A stretch of 54,995 nucleotides of DNA from a virus: positions 1 to 54,995 of the IMG/VR virus record IMGVR_UViG_3300027418_000012. One strand, given 5' to 3'. Shown piece by piece: positions 979 to 7,500 of the stretch (position 1 is the stretch's first letter; the number at the start of each line of letters is the position of its first letter). The notes under the pieces were generated by a model that saw only the letters and a program-made list of their open reading frames with translations, did not search any database and was not told where the DNA came from. A program made the position numbers and the translations under genes.

Positions 979-1164
979 TGTTTACATTTAGCTAAAGTAA
1001 AAACACTACACATCTACAGGGACTATCCTTGATTATCCCCTGGTGTAGACCTTTAAGCAGTAAATCAAGCTATGTTGCTTATTGGACTTTTTCTTATTAA
1101 CTCCTCTGAGGGAGTATAAACCGTGTTAGGCTCAGAGCGTCCGTAGTATATCTACGGGGTCACC
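976..1164 (+). ncRNA. Structured leader with H-type pseudoknot
   Basis: Successive helices fill this gap. TAGTGTTT (976-983) pairs with AAACACTA (1001-1008). TCTACA/GGGA (1013-1022) pairs with TCCC/TGTAGA (1036-1049). TAAGCA (1054-1059) pairs with TGCTTA (1076-1081). A 5-bp stem ACTCC/GGAGT (1100-1115) has a loop TCTGAG that is exactly complementary to CTCAGA at 1131-1136, a textbook pseudoknot. CCGTAG/CTACGG (1141-1157) follows, and then GGGGTCACC 15 bases before the next ATG. This looks like a cis-regulatory RNA, but I cannot assign it to a known class. Confidence 0.55.
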
Positions 1165-3381: not shown

Positions 3382-4146
3382 ATGAAAAAGCAATCAGATG
3401 CTTCAATTCTAAAGACAATAATGCCTTTAGAAATCTTACGTAAAGACTCCAATAAGAGTCTTGGTATTTTAAACATGGTCAATAGACCAATTGTACCCTC
3501 ACATGTCACCTCTGTAGCTACATCAATTGAGAAAATAGGTCTTATACGACCTGTTGTTGTAGCTAATCTAGACTTAAAAGAGTTTAAAGGAGAATATATT
3601 ATAGACGGACAGCATTTGTTTAATGCTTGTATGAGACTAAACAAACATGTTCCTTATGTAAAAATAGACATAAACTCGGAAGAAGAACTAATAGACATAT
3701 TAGCCAGTCTTAACAATTCATCTAAAGCATGGACATTAAAAGACTATGTACAATCATGGGCATACATACGCTCAGATTTTAGAAAATTAGCTAAATATCG
3801 TCAAACATATGATTTAGAATTAGTAGCAATTGCAGGTATTCTGCATAAGTCTCCTAATATATTTCATTGTATGAACTTAATTAAGAAAGGTGAGCTGGTA
3901 ATTAAAAACGAAGCGGTAGCTGTCAAGGTGATGGAGTATACTAATGATCTATTAGGTGTATTCTACAAGTTTGATAGAAAAAACGCTAGAAAGTTAGTTA
4001 ATGCATATGTACAGTATGTAACAAACACTCATGATTCTTATAATCATAAAAAATTCTTAAATAACATTAACAAGCAGAAAAGTAAATTAGAACTGTTATT
4101 GGCTAATCCCGATGATGTAACTGATTTCTTTAATAAAATGTCTTAA
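3382..4146 (+). CDS. ParB/Srx-fold domain protein, 254 aa
   Basis: Residues about 35-105 match the ParB N-terminal (ParB/sulfiredoxin) fold: SHVTSVATSIEKIGLIRPVV followed by EYIIDGQHLFNACMRLN, the usual arrangement of a recruiting helix, a beta strand and the GQHR-like box (here DGQHLFNA). ParB-fold domains bind or hydrolyse nucleotides and often bind DNA. The rest (about 115-254) is helical and unlike the DNA-binding domain of chromosomal ParB, and no ParA partner is nearby. Phage members act in nuclease, partition or regulatory roles; which applies here is open. The gene sits between a terminator and a structured RNA. Confidence 0.75.
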   Translation: MKKQSDASILKTIMPLEILRKDSNKSLGILNMVNRPIVPSHVTSVATSIEKIGLIRPVVVANLDLKEFKGEYIIDGQHLFNACMRLNKHVPYVKIDINSEEELIDILASLNNSSKAWTLKDYVQSWAYIRSDFRKLAKYRQTYDLELVAIAGILHKSPNIFHCMNLIKKGELVIKNEAVAVKVMEYTNDLLGVFYKFDRKNARKLVNAYVQYVTNTHDSYNHKKFLNNINKQKSKLELLLANPDDVTDFFNKMS

Positions 4147-6030: not shown

Positions 6031-6044
6031 TAAATAAGTAAAAG

Positions 6045-6071
6045 AGGGGGGCAGCAATGCCTCCTTTTTTT
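6045..6071 (+). terminator. Rho-independent terminator with GCAA loop
   Basis: GGGGGCA (6047-6053) pairs with TGCCTCC (6058-6064), with one G-U pair, around a GCAA loop, followed by seven T. It closes the 4458-6030 operon. Confidence 0.9.
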
Positions 6072-6107
6072 ATTACATTTGCTTCCCTTCATTTACAAAA
6101 CACACAC

Positions 6108-6398
6108 ATGTCACAACTTATCAACTATAGATTAAAAAATGGCTTTGGACAAGTTAGTAACAATATCATGAGAGATCCTGAAGTTTCTTTGCAAGAAAAG
6201 GCAGTTTATTCTTATCTTTGTACTTACTCAGATGCCATTACTAATCAGACATATGTTGGTATAGCTAAAATGGCAGATGAATGTGGAGTGTCTCAATCAA
6301 CTATTAAAAGAATATTAAATAGTCTTGAGAGTAAAAGAATAATAGTAAGAGTAACTCGTGGTAGTGGATTAACATCGTTTACAAACATATTAAAATAA
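6108..6398 (+). CDS. Helix-turn-helix protein, 96 aa
   Basis: ATG 6108 is chosen because the longer frame from 6057 begins inside the terminator. Residues about 20-90 form a winged-helix-like domain of the kind found at the N-terminus of phage and plasmid replication initiators (HTH_36 type). It has VSLQEKAVYSYLCTYSD, then MADECGVSQSTIKRILNSLE as helix-turn-helix, then IIVRVTRGSG as the wing. It ends right after this domain, so it has no initiator body and probably acts as a regulator. It sits just upstream of the large non-coding RNA region. Confidence 0.75.
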   Translation: MSQLINYRLKNGFGQVSNNIMRDPEVSLQEKAVYSYLCTYSDAITNQTYVGIAKMADECGVSQSTIKRILNSLESKRIIVRVTRGSGLTSFTNILK

Positions 6399-6399
6399 A

Positions 6400-7053
6400 A
6401 GCTTTAATAGCAGCGGGCCAGGCTCAGATAAGCAGGTATTAGTACGCTATTTATATGTATAACTCCTGAGCCCCAGCTAACTTATAATTGTAATCACACT
6501 GAGCGTCTCCTCATTATAGCTGTGATGTATGTTGTTATTGAGTAATGACCAACAACAATTAAACTTATTAACTGATTATAGAAGACTCGTAAGACCCTGC
6601 GGGCTAGGTCAGCTATAATGGTTAAAAATAAAGATCTGATCCTAAGTGCCTATCATTAGTTCTTGTCTCGTTCGTCAAACAGTTCCGTCATTTAGTAGTA
6701 CGACATGTGTATTGAGCTCCGTCAAACGAAAGATGGTCATACCTAGTAGCATTACGTAATAGTACAAAAGTAGTCCTTGAGATAGATCTTTTTTAAAATA
6801 TTACCAAGTTGAAGTCAGTGGCAATAAAACCGGCCACGTGAACTGTCCTCTTAGTATTGCACTGTAGAGAGCCACGATAAAACCGGATACTTGGGAGCAG
6901 TTGATGAAATGCACGTCTGGAAGCTGTTAAACATAAGAACCTGAACAGATAAACCAGAATAATACATACAGTAAGAATTCCAGGTCTGACTGTAAAGTAA
7001 TCAATGATTTAGAAGTGGTGGAGTTTTTAATAGATCTCCACTACTTCTTTTTT
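6400..7053 (+). ncRNA. Large ornate non-coding RNA candidate, about 650 nt
   Basis: No gene is credible in this 660-base stretch, yet it carries many exact long-range complements. Examples are GGCTCAG/CTGAGCC (6421-6472), ATCACA/TGTGAT (6493-6526), an 11-bp CATTATAGCTG/CAGCTATAATG (6512-6620), GTTGTT/AACAAC (6531-6556), AAAGATCT/AGATCTTT (6630-6791) and GTGGC/GCCAC (6818-6837). It ends in its own terminator, immediately before a tmRNA. Size, complexity and company recall the large ornate phage RNAs GOLLD and ROOL, which occur near phage tRNA genes. I cannot confirm membership from sequence alone, and the 5' end is a guess. Confidence 0.65.
7011..7053 (+). terminator. Strong terminator ending the large RNA
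   Basis: AGAAGTGGTGGAG (7011-7023) pairs with CTCCACTACTTCT (7036-7048) over 13 bp with one G-U pair, followed by a run of T to 7053. It separates the large RNA from the tmRNA starting six bases later. Confidence 0.93.
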
Positions 7054-7058
7054 ATAAT

Positions 7059-7482
7059 GGGGCCGTATTGGTTTTGACAGATATGAGGAAGGTAGTATCA
7101 CATGTAAGCCTTGGAACAGGTAAACAAGTTCTAAACAATAACCGTAAAGAGTCAATCTGAGCGTGTTGCAGAAGGTGAAGCTATCTTAGCTTCTATCTTT
7201 GCTTCTGAGTATGCATTAGCAGCTTAGGCAACTGGGTGGTAACAACCTGGAAACAGAAAGTTACAAATGTTTTCTCTGTTATGTCAAAACAGAGTGGTGG
7301 ATGGTAAGCAGAACCTGCGTACCCCAATTTACTGATCAAGATGAAGCTTCGGACTGTAGTAAATACGCAAGCTTGAAACATAGGAAACGCTACAGCAAAT
7401 TCCTATATCAAATAGATCTAAGCATGTAAGAACGGTATTATTGTCACGTATTTGGACAGGGGTTCAACTCCCCTCGGCTCCA
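7059..7482 (+). ncRNA. ssrA: Transfer-messenger RNA (tmRNA)
   Basis: tmRNA rescues stalled ribosomes and tags the unfinished protein for proteolysis. The 5' end GGGGCCG (7059-7065) pairs with CGGCTCC (7475-7481) as the acceptor stem, with one G-U pair. The T-arm AGGGG/TTCAACT/CCCCT lies at 7458-7474, and the D-loop region reads GGTTTTGACAG. CTAAGCATGTA (7418-7428) matches the conserved 3' part of bacterial tmRNAs. The tag frame ends at TAG 7225-7227 and reads GEAILASIFASEYALAA from 7174; the exact resume codon may be up to two codons earlier. The final ALAA is the usual protease signal. CCA is not encoded. No SmpB gene was recognised in the window, so host SmpB would be needed. Confidence 0.93.
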
Positions 7483-7500
7483 CACATTAAAAACAACATT

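Follow-up and report, generated by a model that had tools for sequence, protein, structure and literature searches.

What is encoded in the bases that lie ahead of a tmRNA gene in an uncultivated phage is the question raised by this locus, which sits in a viral stretch of 54,995 nucleotides (the window). To our knowledge only a few classes of large ornate phage RNAs exist, and their purpose is not established; such RNAs have reportedly been shown in recent work to build protein-free particles. The first-pass annotation had proposed that roughly 650 bases (6400–7053) specify a candidate large non-coding RNA, citing the lack of a plausible gene, a set of complementary pairs, and a terminator before the tmRNA. 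At this locus (6037–7485) the RNA elements, the terminators, the promoter-like match, the HTH gene and the tmRNA gene are on the plus strand. The lack of a gene was borne out: the stretch 6399–7058, between a complete HTH gene (ending at 6398) and the tmRNA, contains no open reading frame of at least 60 aa on either strand, and the longest one with an ATG, GTG or TTG start is 38 aa. The intrinsic terminator (7011–7053), which makes the RNA 3' end, was also confirmed as a 13-pair stem (7011–7023 with 7036–7048, one pair being G-U) followed by a T run. The tmRNA gene (7059–7485; ARAGORN; RF00023, 88.3 bits, E 5.6e-33) starts five bases past the end of that T run at 7053. This tmRNA has a long predicted tag of 27 aa, VKSQSERVAEGEAILASIFASEYALAA; the RVAEG stretch in it recurs in the tmRNAs of several relatives. 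The complementary pairs are likewise present, among them AAAGATCT at 6630–6637 with AGATCTTT at 6784–6791. When the window RNA was folded singly, the MFE z score was -0.81, and 3 of 20 shuffles folded at least as well. Because single-sequence folding was at chance, and because complements of 5–11 bases within 650 nt prove nothing alone, the pairs were taken as a lead and not as proof.

When the region was searched by blastn against an annotated phage collection, nothing came up beyond a chance match of 26 nt, and neither single-protein scans with the UP gene nor a 20-mer pattern found relatives. The route to relatives ran through a tmRNA pattern and then through alignments of the DNA polymerase, the A2 gene and the HTH gene. 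The tmRNA 5'-end pattern matched one IMG/VR record, G001, whose DNA polymerase is 69% identical to that of the window. The DNA polymerase alignment led to 80 related loci, and blastn within those records gave true homologues of the RNA region. Searching with the alignments of A2 and of the HTH gene yielded about 25 distinct loci in IMG/VR, the window included, with the conserved gene order UP - HTH - RNA - (optional genes) - DN - A2. A scan for the RNA core motif, independent of any protein, returned 10 contigs, of which 7 were real and 3 were chance matches in GC-rich coding DNA; the same HTH gene was directly upstream in 6/6 of the real contigs holding upstream sequence. No copy of the HTH-linked RNA was found in the G001 genome. 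In that genome (L005, 13770–14800) about 900 nt upstream of the tmRNA are gene-free, with a tRNA-like 3' end, GGTTCGATTCC..CCA, in their middle and no Rfam match. Elsewhere in the window, the 27-bp stretch 612–638 (around ACTAGCAGGTGTTAAGGCTAGTGCG) is identical in G001 non-coding DNA, compared with about 70% coding identity, and is a strongly conserved element.

Matches to tmRNA were present in 13 of the 32 records searched, nine of them, by coordinates, downstream of the HTH-linked RNA at a distance of up to about 2 kb, and a tRNA or tmRNA lies near the RNA in several relatives. Adjacency to a tmRNA is common but optional. The tmRNA neighbourhood stressed by the first-pass annotation thus holds for the window but only for some relatives, the constant partner being the upstream HTH gene.

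From the alignments, the RNA is predicted to fold as two independent domains joined by a tolerant linker: a 5' domain, made of hairpin A, helix H1 and helix H2, whose inner hairpins are exchangeable, and a 3' domain C. Hairpin A (6411–6479; 8 sequences) has a conserved inner AGGTATTAGTACGCTA-type stretch. It is followed by a variable slot with local hairpins (6480–6567), which is filled differently in relatives and ranges from absent to over 300 nt, and by helix H1 (6568–6625; 17 sequences). The 5' strand of H2, AAAGATCTGATCCTAAG, occupies 6630–6646 and has compensated pairs over 25 sequences; its covarying 3' strand, CTTGAGATAGATCTTT, occupies 6776–6791. The pair of 6630 with 6784 that had been noticed at the outset proved to be the outer part of this helix, with 368 of 375 cells paired over the 25 sequences and compensatory change at 10 of the 15 pairs. 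The H2 interior (6647–6775), where alignment is uncertain, carries exchangeable hairpin modules that include a recurrent GTAGTACGACATG...GAGCTCCGTCAAACGAA module, and in most relatives H2 ends in a T-rich stretch. A bulged-helix motif, 5'-CUGAU-3' opposite 5'-AUAG-3' with one bulged base, is common to H1 (AUGG in the window), to H2 and, in some relatives, to a further helix upstream. This helix occurs 33 times in the loci, often twice per RNA, versus 0.15 times expected from shuffles; the count required 4 or more pairs to either side of the bulge motif, and the window H2, with one inner mismatch, is not among the 33.

The linker (6792–6803) holds a complete gene in five relatives. In L213, L217, L221, L226 and L129 a whole 244-aa ParB-like gene stands exactly at this point, flanked by the 5' domain upstream and domain C downstream, and in the two tested the product matched PHROG 12305. 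The window has a gene weakly related to the ParB-like linker ORF (3382–4146; tblastn, 50 bits), about 2.3 kb upstream instead. Domain C (6804–7007; 12 sequences) is composed of P1 (6804–6809/6889–6894), the hairpins P2 and P3, P4 (6900–6905/7000–7005), P5 and P6. A further pairing, P7, is a probable pseudoknot and fits 71% of cells; a proposed helix P8 fits only 42% and is not claimed. A loop-loop pair reads CCG/CGG in 11 sequences and CCA/UGG in the twelfth. Domain C was seen in a single subclade only, at 12 distinct loci, and its covariance model R1 (209.7 bits) gave clear matches only at HTH-linked loci. R1 matches of 13–19 bits in other genomes were weak and were taken as chance. An exact domain C pattern was found in none of 84,980 bacterial and archaeal genomes, and hence no prophage or host was identified. 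Other relatives lack domain C and have a gene, tRNA or tmRNA next; what comes after the 5' domain may be a ParB-like ORF, a 143-aa ORF, a tRNA, a tmRNA or the next gene, and in some relatives a coding gene is immediately 3' of the 5' domain and H2.

To judge the pairing, both-side cells were compared with a tree null in which substitutions are replayed on the tree, a simplified form of R-scape's null. With structures that are favoured because they were derived from the very alignments under test, and with cells that are not independent, the counts were 45 versus 9.9 ± 3.4 for H2 (reached in 0/500 simulations), 34 versus 7.7 ± 3.2 for H1 (0/500; 17 sequences), 54 versus 13.4 ± 3.8 for domain C (0/500; 12 sequences), and 11 versus 3.4 ± 1.8 for hairpin A (reached in 1/500; 8 sequences). 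In a separate count, domain C had 58 both-side cells versus 20.5 when shuffled and 1–11 with slid partners. Only named pairs were tested in domain C, since all-against-all covariation on 12 sequences lacked power. By these alignments, structure is conserved at the RNA level, and pairing in A, H1, H2 and C covaries more than the tree-based and shuffled controls do. Over the helices, this strand has 84 G-U cells and 16 A-C cells, a bias that a plus-strand RNA should show; folding methods that allow G-U favour such an excess. The first-pass annotation had staked its proposal on covariation among homologues and on the absence of a conserved protein frame. Covariation was strong, and no conserved reading frame was found over the RNA in relatives.

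The HTH gene (6111–6398) is directly 5' of the RNA in every relative with upstream sequence present. Locus L129 had seemed to be without it, and the gene was found once more of the contig was read. Its ORF could begin at 6057, the start at 6111 being chosen by homology, and by PHROG and Pfam matches its product resembles the N-terminal domain of phage replication-initiation and DnaD-like proteins. An intrinsic terminator with a 17-pair stem and a T run (6037–6074) lies between the preceding gene and the HTH gene; no terminator was found between the HTH gene and the RNA in the window, and in some relatives H1 begins a few nt past the HTH stop codon. Because the terminator at 6037–6074 cuts off the preceding gene, the HTH gene and the RNA probably form one transcription unit, which would run from past 6074 to 7053. 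A weak promoter-like match, TTAACA-16-TAAAAT (6369–6396), would permit a separate RNA start; matches of this kind are no more frequent here than chance predicts.

No Rfam 15 family matched the region 6380–7070 (E<=10) or its relatives, even at permissive thresholds. The GOLLD model (RF02032) had no match in 6380–7070 (E<=10) or in the whole window record (E<=1). That the model works is indicated by the same search, which found GOLLD at other loci, L245 (G067), L246 (G061) and L247 (G066), with 88–112 bits and E values of 1e-25 to 1e-32. In these three genomes GOLLD lies, by coordinates, 3–5 kb upstream of the HTH gene, apart from the HTH-linked RNA, which must on this evidence be a different RNA. 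With E values so minute, and scores below the curated Rfam cut-off of 150, these GOLLD copies look like a subtype missed by the threshold. The ROOL model (RF03087) matched neither the window nor 33 related records, in a record search that had no positive-control match. Like GOLLD, the window RNA is a large structured phage RNA near tRNA or tmRNA genes. GOLLD is often near tRNA genes, has a conserved 3' region and a more variable 5' region, and can hold tRNA genes in its linker (PMC12286853), an arrangement that the relatives with a gene at the junction of the 5' domain and C resemble. The window RNA differs from GOLLD in having other helices and motifs. The likeness to ROOL is that to a phage RNA of about 600 nt which lies close to tRNAs and is extensively structured, pseudoknots included.

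The first-pass annotation had left the choice between a divergent GOLLD or ROOL member and a new class. Size range, phage setting and tRNA/tmRNA neighbourhood would suit a GOLLD or ROOL beyond the reach of covariance models, but with three of these genomes having GOLLD at another place, and with motif and blast likeness to those copies confined to short weak matches, we regard this as very improbable. The other half of the proposal is supported: by the searches made, this appears to be a new class within the large ornate phage RNAs. A literature search, with most subscription papers and bioRxiv preprints outside its scope, found no description of this RNA. Two RNAs may be likened to it by description. 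One is ARRPOF, as a review describes it (PMC12641628), a large structured mobile-element RNA linked to replication by its name, as the window RNA is linked to a replication-initiator-like HTH neighbour. The other is the approximately 800-nt, very abundant non-coding transcript from a large ORF-less region of phage ICP1 (PMC7567579), which belongs to another phage lineage.

We put at somewhat over one half, about 55%, the probability that window 6403–7053 specifies a large non-coding phage RNA of modular build and of a new class, stable and acting in trans as a structural scaffold. The structure, strand, modularity and genomic linkage of the RNA are what sequence comparison supports directly; the RNA would further accumulate as a stable RNA and would act at the infection stage, as has been proposed for GOLLD and ROOL. 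A stable, modular structural RNA that works in trans is the most likely reading, as it accounts best for a fold that is conserved, downstream genes that vary and a linker that tolerates insertions. Against it stand the HTH gene that is always directly upstream, with which a cis role in the HTH mRNA is possible, the confinement of domain C to 12 loci, and the leader-like position of a gene right after the 5' domain in some relatives. The main rival is accordingly a cis role in the HTH transcript, in which the region would be a long 3' untranslated, attenuator or processing element, or a leader, controlling stability or read-through. The constant upstream gene, the missing terminator between it and the RNA, and the T-rich end of most H2 helices, which a gene may follow at once, all speak for such a role. 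Yet the downstream gene is not conserved, and the free variation of what follows the 5' domain argues against the leader of one gene. Further, about 650 nt and two or more domains are far beyond the needs of an attenuator, domain C comes after an inserted gene in five relatives, and it has its own strong terminator at its end. On balance we consider the cis role unlikely.

Less likely again is an origin or replication-control RNA working with the initiator-like HTH protein, for which ARRPOF (plasmid area required for replication) would be a loose precedent. The replication-initiation and DnaD-like PHROG matches and the ParB-like genes at the locus in relatives are in keeping with it, but the protein has only the HTH part of an initiator, and no array of iterons is present, the direct repeats amounting to two short pairs. 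Selection on RNA pairing, with G-U tolerated, is a misfit with a DNA hairpin origin. The precise insertion of a gene between two structured domains could also suggest a mobile element of the intron or ribozyme kind, in which the linker gene is optional. This is the least probable of the explanations, given that no group I or II intron or ribozyme matched over the RNA, that the flanking genes are complete, that the locus is always the same, and that the inserted gene is ParB-like and not a homing endonuclease.

GOLLD and ROOL are known to self-assemble (PMC12286853), and by analogy only we offer, as less likely than not, that the HTH-linked RNA may be a further, unrelated class of self-assembling RNA that makes protein-free particles and is encoded alongside GOLLD in some phages. 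Its candidate assembly elements would be the repeated CUGAU/AUAG helices and the loop-loop contact of domain C. The loop-loop pair is the one hint of self-assembly and could equally be intramolecular, and self-assembly of the window RNA itself is speculative. The purpose of such RNAs would become more testable with one more class that is built in modules, has a constant protein neighbour and includes members with or without each module. The fixed HTH neighbour is a concrete candidate for a protein partner of the RNA, and phages carrying both the HTH-linked RNA and GOLLD would let each RNA be removed separately.

Other RNA features were seen in the window and its relatives. An intergenic Pistol self-cleaving ribozyme is at window 1100–1164 (47.3 bits, above the Rfam gathering score), and at 2110–2450 there is a long ORF-poor stretch with apparent inverted repeats and no Rfam match at the gathering score. 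Downstream of H2, and before a tmRNA or tRNA, L220, L227, L233, L236, L257 and L260 share a conserved element of roughly 90 nt, AGATGCCG..TACCGTATCTGTGGCGT..CAGATGGGATCTGGTATGCATCACAAGTATAC. In L230 and L233 the tmRNA genes have large structured insertions, and stretches found in these, such as AAGAGCTATGCTCCC, are also present in L150 past H2, as though RNA modules moved between the tmRNA and the HTH-linked RNA.
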